DNA of 64,000 bases from Flavobacteriales bacterium (lineage in GTDB: Bacteria > Bacteroidota > Bacteroidia > Flavobacteriales_F > PHOS-HE28): the NCBI GenBank assembly GCA_019638115.1, contig JAHBUK010000005.1, positions 1-64,000 on the forward strand. Direction: 5' to 3'. The notes under the pieces are model-generated. The model saw only the letters and a list, made by a program, of their open reading frames with translations. It was not told the origin of the DNA and searched no databases. Shown one piece after another: positions 8,473-43,499 of this stretch. Within the stretch, counting starts at the first letter, position 1. The number at the start of each line of letters is the position of its first letter. The position numbers and the translations under genes are program-made.

Positions 8473-10671
8473 CTACTGTTTCACGAAACGGGCAGTGCCA
8501 CCGCCCAGCTGGATCAGATAGAGTCCCGGCGAAAGTTGGGTCACCTCCAGCATGAATACATCGTTGCTCCAGGTGCCGGTCACATGCACTTCCTGTCCAT
8601 CCGCAGCGAACACGCGATGCACACGCGGTGCATCAGGCTGCACACGTACCTGCAAATGATCGGTGACCGGATTCGGATGTACGGCCAAGCGGTGCACGGC
8701 AGGATCCTCCACCCCCGTCCCCGTGGTCGCCACCAGCACGCTCGGCTCGGTGATCACCGGCGGGTTGAAGTCGAAGTAGATGTTGGCAATGTTGGTGATC
8801 TCATCGCCGGGAAGTAGCGGCAGGCGCGGGCGGATGCGGAAGCCCACGAAGCCGTGGCTCAATGGCTCGCTGAAGTTGCTGTCAGGCAGCAGGATGTTCG
8901 GGAAGAAGACGCGTAGCGTGCTTTCCCCGCGCAGTTCCCACGAGAACGGGCTGTGCGATGCGGAGCCCATCACAAGTGTGCCCGGATCCAGGTTGGGAGG
9001 CAGCGTATCGGTGATCACCACATTGAAGGCGGTGTCCGTGCCCGTGTTCTGGAAGCGGATCGTGTAATCGATCCATTGGTCCTCGTTGATCTGCCACACG
9101 CTGGTGTTGCCATTGCTGGTGTACGCCAGCTTGTCGTTGGGGTCGTAGGCACCGGTTATGGTGCGCAGGTTGGTGGCGCTGTTGTTGGTGAGGTCGCTGT
9201 CCGAGTTGGCAGTGCTCACAATAGCGTTGGCCACCAGTTCATAGCCCAGCAGGCCCACGTCGGGTGGCACTTGGAAACGGATGGTGATATAGCGCGACTG
9301 CCAGGCGGTGAGCTCGGCCTGGTTCCAGGTTAAGGTATTGCCTACCACAGTGGTCGGAGCGGGGCTGGCGGCGATGAAGGAGACGGTCGGGTCGAACGTG
9401 AAGCTGGTTGAAATGGCACCGCTGCTGGAAGGGGTATGGTTCCGCACCAACATGCCGTACTGGAACTCGAATCCGGGCCGTGCCGCACCGCTGGAGAGCG
9501 AGACGGAGACATCCAAAGGCACCAGCGAGGTGTCCGCATGATGTACCGTGGTATAGGCGCCCGCATTGATGGTGAAGGGGATCGGTGTGCCCACACAATG
9601 CTCTCCCAAGGTGCTGCTCTGCTGCTGCACCGTGTAGGATCCGGAAGGCAGCGTGAAGGAGTATTGTCCGTTGCCGCTCGTGGTGGCATAATAGGGGCCG
9701 GGCAGCACTTCCATGATCATGCCGGGCACAAAAGGCTCGTTGGTCTGCCGGGTGCAGTTCAGGTCGTTATCCACGAACGCGGTTCCCGAGAGAATGCCGC
9801 AATCGGTGCCGAGGTCGGTGATGGTGAAGGGCACCATGTCCTGGCACGCGGCCGGATGCCAGGTGAAATAGCGCTTTGCGTAGTAGTTGCCGGGAGCGAG
9901 CCCGGGTCGCGTTGCGATGTTCTGTCCTTGTGTCGTGTTCAAGCCACCGATCGGCCCGCCCACCTGTTGCATGGACTCGTTGAGGATCACTACATCCCAC
10001 AAGCTCGCAAAGGGACTCGTGTCATCGATGCCGGCATGGATGGTCACGGTGCCGGTAGGCATTCCGCTGCAAGTCGGCGTCACACCCAGGATGCCCATGG
10101 GCGATGGGTCGCTGCTTTCGGGATACCACGTGTCGATGATCTCCAACTCGCAACCGGTGGCATCGGTTACGAAGAACTGCAGTATCTGTCCGGGGCACAG
10201 CGTGGTGTACTGCCCATAGGATCCCCCCACCGGTCCGCCGTTGTCCACATCCAGCGGAGGCCAGAAGGAGAGCGGCTGCACCAGGTTGGCGGGTATTGCA
10301 TCCTCATGGATGTTCCGCCCCCCATTGCACAGGTTCTTGCACCCATGCAGCCCGGCACCTGAAAAGGCCGTGTAGATCGTATTCTCTCCGATCAGGATGG
10401 TCACCTGTGCCGTGGCCTCGTCCAACAGGGCATCGGTAACGGTCACGGAGTAGGTGCCCGGTGCCAGCCCCTGCACTTCCTCCGTGTTCGCGCCATTGCT
10501 CCATAAGTAGGTGTACGGTGGTGTTCCTCCGGACACGCTGGCGGTCGCATAGCCGTTGTTATTGCCGCACAAACTGGGTCCATACTGCCAGATGCTCACG
10601 CTGATGGCCTTGGACAAGCTCGGTACGAGCAGCAGAAGCAGGAAGCAGGCTCGGGTCATCATGTTGGTCAT
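8473..10671 (-). CDS. SprB-repeat/DUF7619 protein with T9SS type A sorting domain
   Basis: 732 residues from ATG 10671 (MTNMMTRACFLLLLLVPSL, signal peptide). The ATG overlaps the stop of the upstream gene as ATGA, which favours it over ATG 10662 or 10659. Parts in order: SprB-like repeat (GGTPPYTYLWSNGANTEE, then GTYSVTVTD), variable middle, the segment FVDNDLNCTRQTNEPFVP, DUF11-like region, DPNDK near 509 plus DUF7619-like core, and sorting domain from about 660 (VHPNPVTDHLQVRV) ending ARFVKQ. The block from the NCTRQTNEP segment to DPNDK is very close to the genes at 1702 and 1. This suggests recent duplication or gene conversion inside the cluster. Confidence 0.9.
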   Translation of the reverse strand: MTNMMTRACFLLLLLVPSLSKAISVSIWQYGPSLCGNNNGYATASVSGGTPPYTYLWSNGANTEEVQGLAPGTYSVTVTDALLDEATAQVTILIGENTIYTAFSGAGLHGCKNLCNGGRNIHEDAIPANLVQPLSFWPPLDVDNGGPVGGSYGQYTTLCPGQILQFFVTDATGCELEIIDTWYPESSDPSPMGILGVTPTCSGMPTGTVTIHAGIDDTSPFASLWDVVILNESMQQVGGPIGGLNTTQGQNIATRPGLAPGNYYAKRYFTWHPAACQDMVPFTITDLGTDCGILSGTAFVDNDLNCTRQTNEPFVPGMIMEVLPGPYYATTSGNGQYSFTLPSGSYTVQQQSSTLGEHCVGTPIPFTINAGAYTTVHHADTSLVPLDVSVSLSSGAARPGFEFQYGMLVRNHTPSSSGAISTSFTFDPTVSFIAASPAPTTVVGNTLTWNQAELTAWQSRYITIRFQVPPDVGLLGYELVANAIVSTANSDSDLTNNSATNLRTITGAYDPNDKLAYTSNGNTSVWQINEDQWIDYTIRFQNTGTDTAFNVVITDTLPPNLDPGTLVMGSASHSPFSWELRGESTLRVFFPNILLPDSNFSEPLSHGFVGFRIRPRLPLLPGDEITNIANIYFDFNPPVITEPSVLVATTGTGVEDPAVHRLAVHPNPVTDHLQVRVQPDAPRVHRVFAADGQEVHVTGTWSNDVFMLEVTQLSPGLYLIQLGGGTARFVKQ

Positions 10672-13337
10672 TGCTTGATCAGGATCGTGCGCAGCGTTGC
10701 TCCACTGCTGCATTCGGCCTGCACGATGTAGCTGCCGGGTGCCAGCCCCGCCAGTTCGATCAAGTGTATGTCGCTATCCGCCCTTCCGGTGCTCACCAGG
10801 CGTCCATCACTGCCGAACAAGCTCCAGCGCAGGATGCGATCTTGGCTTGTGGTGATCGTTGCGCTTTCGGTGGCCGGGTTGGGGTGGATGCTCAGCACAG
10901 GGGCTTGTATGTTGCGGATGCTCGTGCTGAATTCCGCCAGCAGCACGCTCGGCTCGGTGATCACCGGCGGGTTGAAGTCGAAGAAGATGTTGGCAGTGTT
11001 GGAGATCTCCTCACCCAGCAGAACAGGCATGTGTGGGCGGATGCGGAAGCCCACGAAGCCGTGCGAAGCGGGTTCGTTCACGAAGCTGTCAGGCAGCAGG
11101 ATGTTGTTGAAGGTGAACTCCAGGATGCCCGGTCCTTTCAACTCCCAGGTGAAGGGGTGCGATGCAGCGCCCATCTGGATGGTGGTGGGGTTGAGGGCGG
11201 AAGGCAGCGTGTCGGTGATCACCACGGTGAAGGCGGTGTCATTGCCGGTGTTCTGGAAGCGGATGTTGTAGTCGATCCAGTTGTCCAGGTCGATGTAGAA
11301 GCTGCTGCCGCTGGCACCGCTGCTGGTGGTGGCGATCTTGTCGTTGGGGTCGTAAGCCGCGGTGATGGTGCGCGTATGCACGGTGCTGTTGTTGCCGGTC
11401 TCCTCTTCCTGCGGGTCGATGGTCACCGTGGCAACGGTGGCCAATTGGGTGCCGATGAGCGAGATGTCCACCGGCACTTGGTAATGCACCTGCACACTTT
11501 GCTGTTGGAAGGGGCCGAGCGCAGGCAGTTGCCACACCAGGGTGGTGCCTTGCACGGTGTTGGGCGCTGGTTCGGCGCTGGTGTACTCGATCTCCGTGGG
11601 TATGTTGAGCGTGAGCGTGATGGCCCCGCTCTGCCTGGCCGACAGGTTCTGCACGGCAACGGCCTGCTGGTAGCTGAAGCCCACACGCGCAGCTCCACTG
11701 CTCATGGATACGGCAAGGTCCAGTGCGGTGGCCGCGGTGTCCGGGAAGTCGATGGTTACCTGTGAGCCCCCGCCCGCAATGGTAAAGGGTTGCGGTGCGG
11801 GTGCGCAATGGTCCGTTACGTAGGGGTTGATCTGGCTGATGGTGTAGGCCCCATCGTTCAGTAGCATGAAGTATTCTCCGGTTGTGCTGGTGGTGGCATA
11901 GAAGGGGCCGGGCAGCACTTCGATGATGGTCTGGGGTACCACCACCTCGCTCGCGCTCCAGTTGCAGTCCAGGTCTTCATCAATGAACGAGCGGCCGGTA
12001 AGCGAAACGGTGCCGCATACCACTTGCCATTCCCAAGCATCATAGCCTTGGTTGGAAGACACGCAGCTTACACTTCCATCGGTGGTCAACACCATGTGCA
12101 GGAAACCAGTGCTGGAGAACACGTTCACCTCGTTGTATGGGAACCCCGCGGAATTCACGGCACTGCCCAATGGCCCAAGGTTGGTGCTGTTGGTGTTGAC
12201 GTTGGAGTACAGAAGATCACCGGTGGCATCAGCGCCGTCGTAGATCCGCAGAACGTCCCAGTTGGCCGATTCGATCGTGCCGCGCAAGAACCGCAGGTTC
12301 AGGGTTCCGGTTCCCACGGACTGGTAGGACCACGTCTGCGCCTCGTTGTTCTGGTAGCAATGGGTTTCTACAAGTGGGACCGCACCGCAGATCACCTGCG
12401 TGGGGCAATCGCCGGTGTAGCTGAACACGCCCAGCGGAACATGGCAGACAGGGCTTGTGGCGTTCTCCAAGATGATGCTCACGTTCGAGCCGAACGGGAA
12501 AGTGCCGATGTTGCTGCTGCCAGAGCCGAGTCCTTCGATCACCAAGGGGCTGCCGCCATTCACGGTGTAAACGGCATTAACGGTCGCTGCATCACCGGTG
12601 GAGGTGATCTCGATCTCCACATCGAATTCAGCGGAAGAGCACTCGCCCGGCACCACGGTCGCACTGCCCGCTGGCAGCTCGCAATCCAGGCAACTCACCA
12701 CCCATTCCCAGGGATCGAAGTTGGAAGATGAACTGCACTGCACGCTGAAGTCGGAGGTGAGCTTCATGTACAGCATCCCGGACCCACCCACAACGTCAAC
12801 GGCATGGTACATGGTCCACCCATTGTTCAATGCACTGCCTACAGGACCCAGGTTATGGTCGGTATTCTGCGTGCTGTGGGTGAAGAGGACCGGGGCATTC
12901 GCATCAGGCCCGTCGTATATGGTGAGTTGATCGAAGTTGGAACTCTCGATGGAACCGCGTAGGAATTGCAGGCGAAGGGCACTGCCTCCATCAGCTTCGT
13001 ACAACCAGCTCCGATCCTCCAGTGCAACGTAGCAGTAGCTCTCTTCCACCGGGGCTTCACCACAGGTCACTTGTGTGGGGCAATCTTGCTCTTGCCAAAC
13101 CATGTTGCCCACCGTGCAATCGCCGTCCTCGCCATGCACCACCGCCACGGCTATCCCTGCCAGCGAGGCGAATGGGCCAAGCGCATAGGTGCCCGGGCCA
13201 ACATCCGAGAAGCTGGGGTTCTGCCCAAGTATCACGATGTCCACACCATTGGCATCCCCGATGCTCTGCACATTGACCGTGATGGTGTGTTCGCCGGTGT
13301 TGCAATCCACAGCGGACTCGAAACTGGCCTGAGGCAT
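10668..13337 (-). CDS. CUB-like/DUF7619 T9SS protein, 3' part of a frameshifted gene
   Basis: Downstream part of a gene whose first part lies at 13346-14572 in another frame. 13337 is the first ATG after the shift; the matching frame itself continues up to the ATGGC repeat at 13365-13379. It encodes two CUB-like modules (SWLYEADGGSALRLQFLRGS...LTIYDGPDA and TWSYQSVGTGTLNLRFLRGT...LRIYDGADA), the segment FIDEDLDCNWSASEV, a DUF11-like region, DPNDK and a DUF7619-like core, and a sorting domain (IHPNPATESATITT) ending TILIKQ. Removing one pentamer would join both parts into about 1299 residues. As written, this part has no signal peptide and would not be exported. The CUB-like pair sets it apart from its five operon paralogs. 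Confidence 0.8.
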   Translation of the reverse strand: MPQASFESAVDCNTGEHTITVNVQSIGDANGVDIVILGQNPSFSDVGPGTYALGPFASLAGIAVAVVHGEDGDCTVGNMVWQEQDCPTQVTCGEAPVEESYCYVALEDRSWLYEADGGSALRLQFLRGSIESSNFDQLTIYDGPDANAPVLFTHSTQNTDHNLGPVGSALNNGWTMYHAVDVVGGSGMLYMKLTSDFSVQCSSSSNFDPWEWVVSCLDCELPAGSATVVPGECSSAEFDVEIEITSTGDAATVNAVYTVNGGSPLVIEGLGSGSSNIGTFPFGSNVSIILENATSPVCHVPLGVFSYTGDCPTQVICGAVPLVETHCYQNNEAQTWSYQSVGTGTLNLRFLRGTIESANWDVLRIYDGADATGDLLYSNVNTNSTNLGPLGSAVNSAGFPYNEVNVFSSTGFLHMVLTTDGSVSCVSSNQGYDAWEWQVVCGTVSLTGRSFIDEDLDCNWSASEVVVPQTIIEVLPGPFYATTSTTGEYFMLLNDGAYTISQINPYVTDHCAPAPQPFTIAGGGSQVTIDFPDTAATALDLAVSMSSGAARVGFSYQQAVAVQNLSARQSGAITLTLNIPTEIEYTSAEPAPNTVQGTTLVWQLPALGPFQQQSVQVHYQVPVDISLIGTQLATVATVTIDPQEEETGNNSTVHTRTITAAYDPNDKIATTSSGASGSSFYIDLDNWIDYNIRFQNTGNDTAFTVVITDTLPSALNPTTIQMGAASHPFTWELKGPGILEFTFNNILLPDSFVNEPASHGFVGFRIRPHMPVLLGEEISNTANIFFDFNPPVITEPSVLLAEFSTSIRNIQAPVLSIHPNPATESATITTSQDRILRWSLFGSDGRLVSTGRADSDIHLIELAGLAPGSYIVQAECSSGATLRTILIKQ

Positions 13338-34053: not shown

Positions 34054-34605
34054 CTAGTGTCCGTAATACAAGGCTGCCAGCTCTTCCTTGCCGCTAGAGA
34101 ACCCGCCAATTGCATGTACCATCATGACCGACAAACTGTCGACCTTCAGAATGACTTCCATCTCCGTGTCGCCGAACTTCCCAATACCATCCCTGTACCC
34201 AGCAATACGGTCCTTAAAATGTCGGCAACTCCGCTTGAACTTTGTGTCCTTGTATAGAGCATGGAGGTTTACAATTACGGCCTCGTTTGGAGGTCTAAAG
34301 CCGAAAATGAATCCATGCTTACCAGGCGCGGGAACACCCCCATGAATGCCTGCGGCTACTTCAAAGTCAATGGACCACGCGGAGTATGTTTCCTCCAGAG
34401 CATAGTTGGTCGCCAGCTTCCACAGATCTGCCTTGGCAATAGCGATACGACGATAGCACTTCTTGTTCGCTTTCTTGGCATGTTCAGGGAGTTCATCACG
34501 AAGCGCGATGAGTCGATTGGCTATTCTTGTCTTCTTAACCCCAACCCCTTTACGCTGCCAGTCGTTGACTGCTTGTAGCAGATCTAAGCTATAGAACTCG
34601 GCCAT
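34054..34605 (-). CDS. Uncharacterised protein next to the restriction-modification genes
   Basis: 183 residues (MAEFYSLDLLQAVNDWQRKG), soluble, without signal peptide or membrane segments. Visible: a basic helical first half (KKTRIANRLIALRDELPEHAKKANKKCYRR) and a mixed second half with GFIFGFRPPNEAVIVNLHALY and SLSVMMVHAIGGFSSGKEEL. I recognise no family. It lies 22 nt after the endonuclease gene on the same strand and has the same lower GC, so it probably arrived with and is co-transcribed with the restriction-modification pair. It could be a regulatory or accessory component; this is context only. Confidence 0.65.
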   Translation of the reverse strand: MAEFYSLDLLQAVNDWQRKGVGVKKTRIANRLIALRDELPEHAKKANKKCYRRIAIAKADLWKLATNYALEETYSAWSIDFEVAAGIHGGVPAPGKHGFIFGFRPPNEAVIVNLHALYKDTKFKRSCRHFKDRIAGYRDGIGKFGDTEMEVILKVDSLSVMMVHAIGGFSSGKEELAALYYGH

Positions 34606-34627: not shown

Positions 34628-35632
34628 TCAATACTTGGGTATTACATCCGGATATGGGCCTAGGAACCGCTCCCCATTGAAGTGGATCATGTGCTCCGGT
34701 TCATCCGCGAGCCAAACTTCCGACTCCCAAGAAATTTCAGCGATGTACCTGCGGAAGTCGTTTCTGCCCATGAAGGCCGTGACAAAGACCAACCCGGGCC
34801 GTGAGCCTGCAAAGAGGCGCTGGAGTTCGACACGTCGTTTGCCGTCGATCGGGCCTGCTGTGGTGACGGCTTCGATCAATAGCAGCCAGTCCTTCTTGAG
34901 GTAGTGAACCACCACATCGGGCATCTTGGCCGGAGCAGGGACCTTGATACCCAAGGCCGCTAACGCAGGCTTCTCGAACACGCCGAATTTGCTCTCCGTG
35001 TCGCCCACGTACAGGATGACACCACCTGGCACGAATCGTGGGCAGAATTCTTCGATGATGTGCTTCATCAAGGGGTTCTGTCCGCCTGGTGATAGTGTCA
35101 CTGCCTCGCCGTTCGGCAGTGTTACAGGTATGCGTCGTGACGCGCGGTGGCGATTGAGTTCGTTGCGGATCTTCTCAACCCGTTCGAGGTAATCCGTGAG
35201 CTTCTGTTGCCAGTTCTTGGTTCGATAAGAGCGCAGCAAAGCCAAGGCATTGTCCTCGATCTGATAGACGGTCTTGCCGCTGTTGGTAGGGCGGTCAGGG
35301 TCGTCCGGGTTGCGCACCAAGAGAGCATGTTCCACGAAGAACTTGACAGCGTCATCGCGGATGGTCTCCCGGGTGTTCGGCGCGTACTTCACACCATACG
35401 ACTGGTCGATGAACGCGATGATCGGCGTAATGCCACGCAAAGGTGCTGTCGCTTCTGACCATGCCTTGTCGGGGTCAAGGTCGAGCATGGCTAGCAAGGT
35501 GTAGGCAGCGGCTTCGTTGGTCTGCTTGCCCGTGAAGCCAAGACGCTTCAGGATGCCGATCGCTTCGCGCAGGCGGCGTTCCGTTGGAGGTACCGAAGGC
35601 TCGAAGAGTTCCCAGTTATCTTCCAAGCTCAT
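34628..35632 (-). CDS. BsuBI/PstI-family type II restriction endonuclease
   Basis: 334 residues. Cuts foreign DNA; characterised family members recognise CTGCAG. The C-terminal nuclease half carries MPDVVVHY (Asp239) and LLIEAVTTAGPIDGKRRVEL (Glu254), the family's PD-(D/E)xK-like core, followed by FVTAFMGRNDFRRY and VWLADEPEHM. The N-terminal half (about 15-165) is helical (a DNA-recognition region in this family). Full length for the family. Its start overlaps the 3' end of the methyltransferase gene by 17 nt, so methylase comes first. CTGCAG is frequent in this window (for example near 19935 and 22993), so the host needs the methylase if specificity is conserved. Confidence 0.88.
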   Translation of the reverse strand: MSLEDNWELFEPSVPPTERRLREAIGILKRLGFTGKQTNEAAAYTLLAMLDLDPDKAWSEATAPLRGITPIIAFIDQSYGVKYAPNTRETIRDDAVKFFVEHALLVRNPDDPDRPTNSGKTVYQIEDNALALLRSYRTKNWQQKLTDYLERVEKIRNELNRHRASRRIPVTLPNGEAVTLSPGGQNPLMKHIIEEFCPRFVPGGVILYVGDTESKFGVFEKPALAALGIKVPAPAKMPDVVVHYLKKDWLLLIEAVTTAGPIDGKRRVELQRLFAGSRPGLVFVTAFMGRNDFRRYIAEISWESEVWLADEPEHMIHFNGERFLGPYPDVIPKY

Positions 35633-37160
35633 GCTCTACCAATTGGTCAATAGTGTTCTGGTCCATCGGTTCGGCCTTCACAAGCGAACCGATGCGCTCC
35701 AAGGTAGTCTTAGCCGGATAGGGAAGTGTTCGAAGGTCGGTCGCATTCACCTGGGTGTGCCCACTGAAGCGACGGAAGTGTTGGTCCACGACAGTCGAAT
35801 TCAAATAGGCGGCAAGTCCTTTTGCCAAGGTCATGTCCAATCCAGCGCCGTTCTGATGGAAGTAGTTCAGATGGTTCTCGAAGCCGACCTCAGCCGCATC
35901 AATGCGTTCCGGGTCATAGATGCAGGCCACTATGCGGCGACGTTCCTCTTTCGATGAGAATCTCTTCACAAGCACGTAGGTGCCCCGTGGGACCATCAGC
36001 GACTTCGTGGCCGGTTCTGAAACGATCGCATTGGGCTTTCGACCATTCTCGATGGGCCATGAGATGTAGCCCTTGTCGAAGTGCGTGGAGTAGATGAGCG
36101 GAACGGTGTTCGAGGCTGGTTCCTGTACGATGAACTCCTCAGCCCTGAAGTCCACCACGCGCCCCGTTGATACCGTCAATCCAAGGTCCTTTAGCCCTGT
36201 ACGGATCTCACGAACGATACCTGCCGCCCTGCTCTGGTCCTCGTTCGTTTCCAAATGGATCATAAGCTCGGGATCGGCAGGGTCGATCACTTCGCTCATT
36301 GGGACGTTCCGCGAAGTCACTTGGTCACCAGCGCGACCGCTGCTGCTGCTAACGACCAAGTCTTTCGGCACTGGCTTGCCAACGACAACATGGAAGATGA
36401 CATTCTCTTGAAGCACTTTGTCTCCCTTGAATGCTGCGGTCCGTGAGTCGAACAGATGCAGCCTTTGCAGGGCGGTTCGCTTCAGGAGGTCTTCTCGGAA
36501 AGGCCGGAAGTATGGTCCGTTGCAGAAGCTTCTTGGTGTGATGGCCACAAGCTCACCGCCGGGTTCCATCAGGCGGATCATGAGTGCGACAAACCCGGTG
36601 TAGAGGTTGCTTGTCTCGATACCCACCGAGCGCAGGGAAGACCTGAATTGCGATGCGCTACTGATCTTACGGTAAGGCGGATTGACGATGGCAGTGGTGA
36701 AGCTGGTCCGGTCGCTTGCGAAGAGGTCATCGCGCAACATTCCTGCTGCACTTTCAATGAAGTCCTCAGCGCAGATGTTGTACTCGAATCCAACCCCTTT
36801 CGCGGCACAGAGGTCTTCGCAATCCATCAGCGTGGCGCGCAGACGTTCGAGCATGAGCGGGTCTAGCTCGTAGACCGTTACGCTTATCTGTTCCGGCCGC
36901 TTTTTGTCGGAGAGTAGACGATGGACAAGAGCTTGGGTCAGCGCACCGGAGCCAGCACCCGCATCGAGCAGCTTAACATGTTTCCGGTCAGTCTTGAACA
37001 TCGATGCCATCAACTCCGCTGTGGGCGCAGGTGTCAAGAACTGCCCAAGCGCGGACTTGCGAGTGCGATCAGCGAGCGCCTCGTCAACGTCCACTTCAGC
37101 GACATCCAAGCTGCTTACAACAGCATCCAATTCCTCCAGACGTTCTACTCTTCTTGCCAT
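35616..37160 (-). CDS. N6-adenine DNA methyltransferase of a BsuBI/PstI-type system
   Basis: 514 residues (MARRVERLEELDAVVSSLDV). Transfers methyl from S-adenosylmethionine to adenine in DNA to protect the host. Motif I is LLDAGAGSGALT (66-74) and motif IV is NPPY (160-163), preceded by GQFLTPAPTAELM (motif X-like). That order (X-I-IV-target recognition) fits a gamma-class enzyme. The remaining 300 residues form the target-recognition part. It is transcribed ahead of and overlaps the endonuclease gene, the usual arrangement for safe establishment. Target CTGCAG is predicted from the partner nuclease, not shown. Confidence 0.9.
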   Translation of the reverse strand: MARRVERLEELDAVVSSLDVAEVDVDEALADRTRKSALGQFLTPAPTAELMASMFKTDRKHVKLLDAGAGSGALTQALVHRLLSDKKRPEQISVTVYELDPLMLERLRATLMDCEDLCAAKGVGFEYNICAEDFIESAAGMLRDDLFASDRTSFTTAIVNPPYRKISSASQFRSSLRSVGIETSNLYTGFVALMIRLMEPGGELVAITPRSFCNGPYFRPFREDLLKRTALQRLHLFDSRTAAFKGDKVLQENVIFHVVVGKPVPKDLVVSSSSGRAGDQVTSRNVPMSEVIDPADPELMIHLETNEDQSRAAGIVREIRTGLKDLGLTVSTGRVVDFRAEEFIVQEPASNTVPLIYSTHFDKGYISWPIENGRKPNAIVSEPATKSLMVPRGTYVLVKRFSSKEERRRIVACIYDPERIDAAEVGFENHLNYFHQNGAGLDMTLAKGLAAYLNSTVVDQHFRRFSGHTQVNATDLRTLPYPAKTTLERIGSLVKAEPMDQNTIDQLVEHELGR

Positions 37161-40941: not shown

Positions 40942-41043
40942 GTTCCAAAGTTCCGTGCTGCAGGCGCATGCAAGCAACGCTGCGATCCTGAAGTTCTTCG
41001 GAATGGCCGTTCTGAACCATTCTGAAACCTTTGCGGATGCAGC

Positions 41044-41051
41044 TATCTTGT
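41044..41051 (+). promoter_or_regulatory. Putative -7 box TATCTTGT before rhuM
   Basis: TATCTTGT fits the loose TAnnTTyG pattern and lies 43 nt before the rhuM ATG. The second rhuM copy at 42604 lacks it. Confidence 0.3.
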
Positions 41052-41094
41052 CCAAGCCCACCTGCCGGGAAAGCCGTCAAGGTGGGTGTATGCC

Positions 41095-42120
41095 ATGAGC
41101 AAACGACCGAAGAAGAACGAAGCTGCCGAAGAAGTGCTGATCTACCGCACCGAGGATGGGCAGGTGCGCATGGATGTGCGCAGCGATGGGGACACCGTAT
41201 GGCTGAGCCAGGAGCAGATGGCCAGGCTGTTCGACAAGGACAAGTCGAGCATCAGCAGGCATGTGCGCAATGTGATCGCCGAGGGTGAGTTGGAGGCCGT
41301 TTCAGTTGTTGCACTTTTTGCAACAACTGCCGCCGACGGCAAGACTTACCAAGTGGAGCACTACAACCTGGACATGATCATCTCGGTGGGCTACCGGGTG
41401 AACAGCAAACGGGGCACCCAGTTCCGCATCTGGGCCACGCAACGGCTCCGCGAGCATCTCATCAAGGGCTTCACGCTGGACGACCGCCGCTTCAAGGAGC
41501 AGAGCGCACTGGACCGCTACTTCGACGAACTGGTGGAGCGGATACGCGACATCCGTACCAGCGAGCGGCAGTTCTACCGGAAGGTGACGGATATCTACGC
41601 CACCAGTACCGATTACGACCCCGATGCGGAGGCCACAAGGAAGTTCTATGCCACGGTGCAGAACAAGTTCCACTTCGCCATAACGGGCCATACCGCTGCT
41701 GAACTGATCGGTGGAAGAGCGAGTGCCCTCCAGCCGAACATGGGCCTGACCAATTGGCCGGGTGAGCGGATCCTGCCGCGCGATGTGACCGTGGCCAAGA
41801 ACTACCTGAACGAGGATGAACTGAAGCAGCTGAACAACATCGTGGAGCAGTACCTGGCCTTTGCGGAATCGCAAGCGTTGCGCAGGAATCCGATGAGCAT
41901 GAAGGACTGGATCGACAAGTTGCACGGCTTCCTCACCCTGAACGAACGCGAGGTACTGGAAGGGGTGGGCCACTTGAGCAAGGAGGAAGCGGATGACCAC
42001 GCCCTGCGCGAGTATGCCAAGTTCCGTGAGGCGAACCGCATTGGTCCGGACCATGAGAGCGATTTCGACAAGGCCGTGAAGCGCCTGAAGGGCGGCCCAC
42101 CGGGAAGAACAGAGCCATGA
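41095..42120 (+). CDS. rhuM: RhuM-family protein
   Basis: 341 residues from ATG 41095 (MSKRPKKNEAAEEVLIYRTE); GTG 41086 is possible. Typical RhuM layout: an N-terminal winged-helix-like segment (VWLSQEQMARLFDKDKSSIS RHVRNVI), a conserved core (ATTAADGKTYQVEHYNLD and IISVGYRVNSKRGTQFRIWA), and an alpha-helical C-terminal domain (NKFHFAITGHTAAELI, NWPGERILPRDVTVAKNYL). RhuM proteins often lie in mobile or restriction loci (recalled). The biochemical activity is not established. Its last codon overlaps the next gene as ATGA. The DNA at 41303-41329 forms a perfect 11-bp hairpin inside the coding region. Confidence 0.88.
   Translation: MSKRPKKNEAAEEVLIYRTEDGQVRMDVRSDGDTVWLSQEQMARLFDKDKSSISRHVRNVIAEGELEAVSVVALFATTAADGKTYQVEHYNLDMIISVGYRVNSKRGTQFRIWATQRLREHLIKGFTLDDRRFKEQSALDRYFDELVERIRDIRTSERQFYRKVTDIYATSTDYDPDAEATRKFYATVQNKFHFAITGHTAAELIGGRASALQPNMGLTNWPGERILPRDVTVAKNYLNEDELKQLNNIVEQYLAFAESQALRRNPMSMKDWIDKLHGFLTLNEREVLEGVGHLSKEEADDHALREYAKFREANRIGPDHESDFDKAVKRLKGGPPGRTEP
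41303..41329. repeat. Perfect 11-bp inverted repeat inside rhuM
   Basis: CAGTTGTTGCA, a 5-nt ctttt loop, then TGCAACAACTG. The broken second rhuM copy near 42809-42835 keeps it unchanged. It encodes the conserved VVALFATTAADG stretch, so protein conservation may explain it. Confidence 0.7.
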
Positions 42121-42533
42121 CCGATCTGCACCAGGCCATCCTCACCACCGTCCTGCCGCAGCAAGTGCCCGGTGCCGAGGTGTTGCCACCCGACAGTTGG
42201 CCAGCCTATGGCCTTTCACCCACCGGCCTGGAGCCCTTGCCGGCCATCGTGGCATACAGCAGCGCGCAGGGATCGCTGTCCATCATCGAGCTGGTCGACC
42301 GCACGGGCGCGCCCAACGCCGAGCGCCATAACGCGTTGATGCGTTGGTCTTCTGCGTTCCGGGGGCCGCGCGCATTCGTGTGGGCCTATGCATCGCGCAC
42401 GGCCTACGCGAAGGACATGGGGGAGCTGCTTTCGGATACCTACGTCTGGTTCGCCGATGAGCCCAAGCATCATGCGTACATCAGTGGTTCGGCGGAGATG
42501 AGTGAGCCATACCGGCGGCGGGTGAGGGCGTGA
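42117..42533 (+). CDS. Small protein resembling the C-terminal nuclease domain of BsuBI/PstI endonucleases
   Basis: 138 residues, ATGA overlap with rhuM. Residues 41-132 line up with residues 237-327 of the endonuclease at 34628: LPAIVAY against MPDVVVHY, LSIIELVDRTG against LLIEAVTTAG, AFVWAYASRTAYAKDMGE against VFVTAFMGRNDFRRYIAE, and VWFADEPKHHAYISG against VWLADEPEHMIHFNG. The second acidic residue (Glu58) is kept but the first catalytic Asp is Ala43, so cleavage activity is doubtful. The N-terminal DNA-recognition half is absent. It may be an accessory or regulatory partner of RhuM, or an immunity-type decoy. The homology is my own by-eye alignment. Confidence 0.7.
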   Translation: MTDLHQAILTTVLPQQVPGAEVLPPDSWPAYGLSPTGLEPLPAIVAYSSAQGSLSIIELVDRTGAPNAERHNALMRWSSAFRGPRAFVWAYASRTAYAKDMGELLSDTYVWFADEPKHHAYISGSAEMSEPYRRRVRA

Positions 42534-42603
42534 TCGTGGAATGCCACGACGCAATTACCTTGTACGAACGCGGGTGACGGAAAGCGCGTCGATCGCGTAT
42601 GCC

Positions 42604-42905
42604 ATGCGCAATCGACCAAAGAAGAACGAAGCTGCCGAAGAGGTGCTGATCTACCGCACCGAGGATGGCCAGGTGCGCATGGATGTGCGCAGCGATGGGG
42701 ACACCGCATGGCTGAGCCAGGAGCAGATGGCCAGGCGTTCGACAAGAACAAGTCGAGCATCAGCAGGCATGTGCGCAACGTGATCGCCGAGGGTGAGTTG
42801 GACGGCGCTTCAGTTGTTGCACTTTTTGCAACAACTGCCGCCGACGGCAAGACCTATCAGGTGGAGCACTACAACCTGGACATGATCATCTCGGTGGGTT
42901 ACTAG
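42604..42905 (+). pseudogene. Truncated and frameshifted rhuM duplicate
   Basis: Repeats the first 310 nt of rhuM (41086-41396) with high identity. One T is missing at about 42735 (CCAGGCGTTCG against CCAGGCTGTTCG), which breaks the frame after residue 40. The corrected frame then stops at TAG 42903, where the parent reads YRVNSK. Nothing of the C-terminal 240 residues remains. It marks an imperfect tandem duplication or a recombination remnant downstream of the rhuM-mini-nuclease pair. Confidence 0.85.
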
Positions 42906-42959: not shown

Positions 42960-43220
42960 CTACCGGTAAATGTCCTTCCGATGGCCCACTTCCCGCACCT
43001 CCACGATGCGGACACCATCATCGATGACATAGAGGATGCGGTAGGCACCAACGCGGATGCGCCACGACTCGGAATGGACGCCCTTCAGCTTTTTGCAACC
43101 TGCTGGCCGCGGATCGGTGCCCAGCGCTTTGATGGCCTTGAATATCCGCGGAACAGCCGCAGCATGGAGCGCGGCGATGTCACGCTCCGCATCCCGTGCG
43201 ATGCGCACTTGGTAGCTCAC
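42960..43220 (-). CDS. RelE/ParE-family toxin
   Basis: 86 residues starting with GTG 43220 (MSYQVRIARDAERDIAALHA). The small fold with RDAERDIAAL, DPRPAGCKKLKG, WRIRVGAYRILYVID and HRKDIYR is the canonical RelE/ParE superfamily pattern: Arg and Tyr near the C-terminus are typical of mRNA-cleaving RelE-like members. The GTG overlaps the antitoxin's TGA, so antitoxin is made first. It probably inhibits translation when the antitoxin is lost and stabilises the accessory region. Confidence 0.88.
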   Translation of the reverse strand: MSYQVRIARDAERDIAALHAAAVPRIFKAIKALGTDPRPAGCKKLKGVHSESWRIRVGAYRILYVIDDGVRIVEVREVGHRKDIYR

Positions 43221-43411
43221 AACTTGCCTTGCTTGCGGAGTTTCTTCTCCAACTGGTCAAGCGATACGGTAGGCTGGCCTGCGCGTTGTTCTGCAATGAG
43301 GCCGTCCATCATGTCCTCGATCTGCTCGCGACGCTTGTCCAGCTCGGCGATGTCGATCTGCAAGTAGCGCTTCTTGTTCGCGCGGTCCTCCAGGATGGTG
43401 ATGCCTTTCAT
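43217..43411 (-). CDS. Antitoxin of the RelE/ParE pair
   Basis: 64 residues from ATG 43411 (MKGITILEDRANKKRYLQID); the frame extends 6 codons upstream. Short acidic-helical protein: a beta-rich start, then IAELDKRREQIEDMMDGLIAE and the C-terminal toxin-wrapping helix VSLDQLEKKLRKQGKL. It resembles small Bacteroidota antitoxins without a classic DNA-binding motif. It binds and neutralises the toxin encoded 3' with GTGA overlap. Confidence 0.8.
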   Translation of the reverse strand: MKGITILEDRANKKRYLQIDIAELDKRREQIEDMMDGLIAEQRAGQPTVSLDQLEKKLRKQGKL

Positions 43412-43499
43412 GGTGATATGCTTCCACACAAAGGTACATGGCGGTGCCGTGGAGATGGTACGTGATCTCGCGTAAAGTGGCGTGTCCCGATCATCGGCC

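Follow-up and report, generated by a model that had tools for sequence, protein, structure and literature searches.

Type II restriction endonucleases of the BsuBI/PstI type combine a PF06616 domain with a PF17728 recognition domain, and are represented among solved structures by SdaI (PDB 2ixs), whose core domain dimerises. Nuclease catalytic elements commonly follow the general PD-(D/E)XK pattern. Restriction enzymes may also be divided between proteins, as in the heterodimeric BspD6I, whose small subunit cuts when paired with the large subunit. For RhuM (PF13310; PADLOC PDC-S05), we know of no BsuBI-like partner, and to our knowledge restriction-nuclease-derived pseudo-enzymes kept as separate defence-island genes have not been described. 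Here we describe a small gene of BsuBI/PstI descent that overlaps rhuM in a Flavobacteriales genome, together with its relatives in other genomes, which we call minis.

The window, a stretch of 64,000 nucleotides (contig JAHBUK010000005.1), contained the following features around the mini-gene.

34628..35632, minus strand: full-length BsuBI/PstI-type restriction endonuclease, 334 aa (PF06616, 3e-61; PF17728, 6e-44)
35616..37160, minus strand: N6-adenine DNA methyltransferase, partner of the 34628 enzyme (PF07669, 1.1e-10; PADLOC MTase_II, 2e-166)
41095..42120, plus strand: full-length rhuM, 341 aa (PF13310, 2.3e-108; PADLOC candidate PDC-S05, 3e-139)
42117..42120, plus strand: ATGA stop-start overlap of rhuM and the mini-gene, read from the sequence
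42117..42533, plus strand: mini-gene, encoding a BsuBI/PstI catalytic-domain homologue of 138 aa that stands alone and has a degenerate active site (PF06616, BLASTP, AlphaFold2 fold, active-site comparison)
about 42556..42905, plus strand: remains of another rhuM 5' end, with one base deleted near 42736 and a premature TAG at 42903-42905
42960..43220, minus strand: ParE-type toxin downstream of the rhuM relic (PF05016, 1.1e-9)

A complete BsuBI-type restriction-modification (R-M) pair thus lies 5 kb from the mini-gene, and no cognate methyltransferase is directly linked in the operon of the mini-gene in the window. On the minus strand, the BsuBI endonuclease is followed by a 183-aa open reading frame (34054-34605) without a family match in Pfam, PADLOC or NCBIfam, and a 70-aa frame (43217-43429) without a Pfam match lies upstream of the ParE-type toxin, in the position of an antitoxin.

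The product of the mini-gene is a free-standing C-terminal (catalytic) domain of a BsuBI/PstI-type restriction enzyme. It matched PF06616 (BsuBI_PstI_RE) at 4.7e-14 (52.5 bits, cut-off 27) over profile positions 67-151 of 154, and BLASTP aligned its residues 4-125 with the 34628 enzyme (E 4e-12). The kinship, whose absence had been named beforehand as what would overturn the original prediction, is clear in both searches. The four other intact minis described below each passed the Pfam cut-off alone as well (42.7-49.7 bits). Among solved structures in the PDB, sequence searches found SdaI as the sole significant relative, at 3e-5 with the mini-protein alone and at 4.9e-10 with the family profile. 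Structure prediction and superposition, proposed earlier as a check, also led to SdaI: the AlphaFold2 model had a mean pLDDT of 89.4 (23 aligned sequences), and Foldseek returned SdaI as the single PDB match below 0.001 (E 3.6e-8, TM 0.77 on the query, rmsd 2.3), although the input alignment included enzyme domains, so that the fold is not wholly independent of the sequence evidence. Chance similarity to BsuBI/PstI enzymes was ruled out by the Pfam, BLAST, PDB sequence and fold matches. In the alignment with the 34628 enzyme, the ADEP, IE.V and FV.A motifs followed one another in the predicted order. Homology to the catalytic half of the enzyme stood as claimed, but its extent had been understated, as the N-terminal third of the mini-protein aligned too (LHQAI..PQQVPGAEVL, against the enzyme from residue 188). 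The DNA-recognition half was indeed absent: Pfam found no PF17728 in the mini-protein, whereas the 34628 enzyme carries it at 6e-44.

The fold is conserved in the minis and the active site is degenerate. In a comparison set of 20 family enzymes, some of them truncated, P238, D239, E254, V256, G260, P261, R266, F287 and W307 (enzyme numbering) were invariant, and G210-D211-T212 and K215 nearly so. Because of this invariance and the general PD-(D/E)XK pattern, GDTxxK, PD and E.V were taken as the catalytic elements. The mini-protein has PA (residues 42-43) where the 34628 enzyme has PD (238-239), and the YVGDTxxK segment (enzyme 208-215) is wholly deleted; the original prediction had recognised Ala43 in place of Asp239 but had understated the loss, missing the deletion. 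Across the five minis, the GDTxxK stretch was deleted and P261 lost in every copy, the D239 position read A, D, N, G and N (changed in four copies), and the E254 position read E, D, D, E and D. P238, R266 and W307 were retained, and the window copy alone kept V256. Judged from these residues, catalysis has probably been lost, and the degenerate site supports the earlier suggestion that the mini-protein may not cut. An active small subunit that would cut when paired with a partner, in analogy to BspD6I, is highly unlikely. The mini-protein does consist of the catalytic domain only, and the window copy retains the Glu of IE.V and the invariant Arg, but GDTxxK is missing from all five copies, the D239 and V256 positions vary within the family, and no gene for a large-subunit partner is conserved.

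Intact minis were found in 4 of the 45 genomes searched in the genus of the window, namely the window genome, G020, G004 and G038. A fifth came from a contig titled Acidobacteria, and a broken copy from G006.

G020, L015:3793-4215: intact mini (genus search)
G004, L016:9720-10133: intact mini (genus search)
G038, L017:11980-12390: intact mini (genus search)
L055:4009-4422: fifth intact mini (contig JAFDVK010000048.1)
G006: broken mini, 3' fragment (genus search)

The L055 contig is probably misbinned, because it is 93.5% identical over 756 bp to the locus of G004, a Flavobacteriales genome of the same genus as the window. The five intact frames encode 137-141 aa, compared with 313-351 aa for the enzymes. 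No further mini was present in ~790 other sampled Bacteroidota genomes (class and phylum samples), where the matches were full-length enzymes, pieces at contig edges and enzymes truncated recently, and a family spread more widely through the Bacteroidota was therefore set aside. A scan of a genome collection with a single mini sequence as the query gave no match; with the family profile, the L055 copy was among the matches listed, which are a lower bound. Viral contigs, scanned both with the single sequence and with the profile, gave no mini, and plasmid and phage matches were at most ~40% identical to the mini and mostly annotated as BsuBI/PstI enzymes, so that a phage or plasmid home for the family was also set aside.

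In a tree for which the program warned of long branches, the five minis formed one clade apart from 34 enzyme domains with support of 99/95. The TFxWFxDEP motif also occurs in L058 and L059 (Actinomycetota); these were not accepted as minis, being long enzymes that did not join them in the tree. About 30 invariant positions are peculiar to the minis, and distant members are only 36-40% identical to each other. The minis are one old, fast-evolving family, known to date from a single genus, whose members always have DNA-methyltransferase or R-M genes in the vicinity.

In each of the four genomes, the mini had a methyltransferase gene at a distance of 171-4957 bp, which is unlikely by chance (Fisher P 1e-5; each genome carries 6-13 methyltransferase loci, and the null of random placement is crude since defence genes cluster), and a methyltransferase or type II R-M system was near the mini in every case. 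In G020, a PF01555 methyltransferase, a type II nuclease and the mini follow one another on one strand. In G038, a C5-methyltransferase, an EcoRII-C nuclease and Vsr lie on the opposite strand with one gene intervening, and a PemK toxin lies on the other side of the mini. An N6-methyltransferase is divergent from the mini of G004, where AIPR and DUF4420 genes lie 6-9 kb away, and the L055 mini has as neighbours a type II nuclease and an Eco57I-type methyltransferase, the latter divergent. Such company might suit an accessory regulator of R-M or defence islands, acting for example on expression or DNA ends and not as a nuclease subunit: the mini is small and non-catalytic, and the R-M genes always found near it are of unrelated types (PF01555, PF00145, Eco57I-like). 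We consider this rather unlikely, as domain searches found no helix-turn-helix or other DNA-binding domain in the minis, and the orientation and distance of the R-M genes vary.

At four loci, an orphan 3' end of a BsuBI-type endonuclease gene lay directly downstream of the mini or mini fragment.

G020, L015:3682-3789, minus strand: frame past the mini stop, encoding the last ~35 residues of a BsuBI-type enzyme (AYAKY..GPRFMGPY; E 7e-12)
G004, L016 about 9670: short homologous piece after the mini
L055 about 4450: short homologous piece after the mini
G006, L018 about 8830: orphan 3' end after the mini fragment

An intact BsuBI enzyme stands just upstream of the mini fragment in G006. The relics indicate that BsuBI systems were repeatedly acquired and lost at these loci. 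No full-length BsuBI enzyme is now present in G004, G020 or G038. In G038, a stretch repeated around rhuM, PemK and the mini (L017:9660-9720, 10280-10400 and 11770-11900) resembles by eye the end of an HNH-type gene and is another sign of island turnover. In two other Bacteroidia genomes (L062:1471-2904 and L076:1471-3032), a truncated BsuBI endonuclease is divergent from a helix-turn-helix gene, which is followed by a 270-aa protein of the same kind as the L055 type II restriction enzyme; one R-M system may have been replaced by another at one spot there.

With nuclease and rhuM relics directly beside these genes, an active site that is lost, a dN/dS near 0.5 and a visibly broken copy in G006, the minis could be functionless and slowly decaying remnants of a truncated BsuBI-type endonuclease, their frames open by chance and moved about by island turnover. 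This is possible, if on the unlikely side. Against it stand five intact frames that share one clade and their own invariant positions, and also the observed substitutions. The dN/dS was 0.43 for G004 and L055 and 0.48-0.57 in comparisons with G020; simulated neutral evolution changed more amino acids than the real sequences show (P 0.01 and 0.05), and 67% and 86% of the runs acquired a stop codon. Constraint on the minis is thus real but weak to moderate. Recent truncations elsewhere also look different: the truncated enzymes L062, L067, L075, L076 and L094 scored 1e-40 to 1e-108 with the enzyme profile, whereas the minis scored about 1e-8 to 4e-12 with that profile and 1e-61 or better with their own.

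The ATGA overlap, confirmed at 42117-42120, had led to the proposal that RhuM and the small protein form a module. Beyond the window genome the pair was not encountered: none of the four other intact minis adjoins rhuM, and no mini was found at ~30 other rhuM loci within flanks of roughly 1.5 kb. The closest relative of the window rhuM, in G028 (88% identical in protein, 81.5% in DNA), can be aligned with window positions 41038-42084, beyond which it terminates at a separate stop codon and lacks a mini-gene; the end of the window rhuM also differs from the three other rhuM ends compared here. Right after the mini-gene lies a broken 5' copy of rhuM, which the original prediction did not mention; it is 95-96% identical to 41088-41394 and also aligned with rhuM of G028 and G038. 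As the G028 rhuM lacks a mini and a second rhuM start region follows the mini-gene, the ATGA junction is most plausibly the product of local rearrangement between copies of rhuM, an origin that we infer.

A rhuM gene or relic was found within 3.4 kb of the mini in three of the four genomes (the window, G004 as a relic, and G038, not G020), more than expected from random placement. However, rhuM also stands beside methyltransferases elsewhere (in G004, C1:659614 by C1:657829-658761; in G020, C1:1946 by C1:2452), and a link based on proximity alone was set aside. Since methyltransferase genes are similarly close to the minis, shared residence in restriction or defence islands is enough to explain the proximity. 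The coupling to RhuM looks incidental, and of the loci examined, only that of the window shows the tight pairing. A two-gene defence or toxin-antitoxin-like module, which the overlap, the proximity and the status of RhuM as a PADLOC defence candidate might suggest, is decidedly unlikely given the adjacency in one genome, the ~30 other rhuM loci without a mini in their flanks, the G028 relative and the methyltransferase neighbours of rhuM elsewhere.

Our preferred reading, held tentatively, is that the mini-protein is a pseudo-nuclease that would not cut and would act by binding a protein, with RhuM not a dedicated partner; a decaying remnant ranks after it, then a regulator of R-M islands and then a module with RhuM. 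A protein-binding role is suggested because the fold is kept, the active site is lost, the recognition domain is absent, evolution is fast and R-M genes are neighbours. Most likely, the mini-protein would bind a BsuBI/PstI-type (or other) restriction nuclease through its retained core, and the binding would damp or neutralise the nuclease at sites of R-M gain, decay and loss. The decoy or inhibitor role raised in the original prediction may apply. The ATGA junction may let rhuM expression carry the mini-gene. The pseudo-nuclease reading is consistent with the homology and fold, the core residues (P238, R266, W307) kept while the active site was lost, the single clade (99/95), constraint above neutral (dN/dS 0.43-0.57), methyltransferases 171-4957 bp away, the BsuBI 3' relics and the intact BsuBI R-M pair 5 kb off. 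It is weakened by the lack of a full-length BsuBI enzyme in G004, G020 and G038, which leaves no evident fixed target, and by the low identity of distant minis (36-40%) and their modest constraint.

A more specific version, which we regard as doubtful, is that the minis are a chromosomal restriction antidote, in which a dead copy of the nuclease core would poison BsuBI/PstI-type (or other) enzymes and the host would gain and lose selfish R-M systems unharmed; if true, it would also explain the nuclease relics beside the minis. A mini able to block restriction enzymes would amount to an antidote, derived from a nuclease, against R-M addiction; should the mini be no more than a remnant, its locus nonetheless records R-M turnover beside one gene family. 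For annotation, PF06616 matches of ~138 aa without GDTxxK should not be named restriction enzymes.

Compared with known systems, the upstream gene in the window is a normal full-length member of the RhuM family, but its BsuBI-like neighbour is unique to the window genome among the loci examined. Like the small subunits of BspD6I-type enzymes, the mini is a separate small protein with the nuclease-type domain alone; in those subunits the active site is kept and the large-subunit partner is fixed, whereas the minis have a degenerate site and varying neighbours. The likeness to ArdA-type anti-restriction proteins, small proteins that inhibit restriction enzymes, lies in the hypothetical effect only, and no relation between the two was indicated by any search made here. 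According to one source, ArdA genes are carried on conjugative plasmids and transposons (PMC3906837). Unlike ArdA, the mini is a domain of the nuclease itself. The minis share the catalytic-domain fold and core residues of the BsuBI/PstI endonucleases, but have no PF17728 domain, no GDTxxK and no conserved PD Asp, and are ~138 aa long in place of 313-351 aa. What is new is a small family of pseudo-enzymes, found so far in one genus, that derive from a nuclease and reside in R-M islands.
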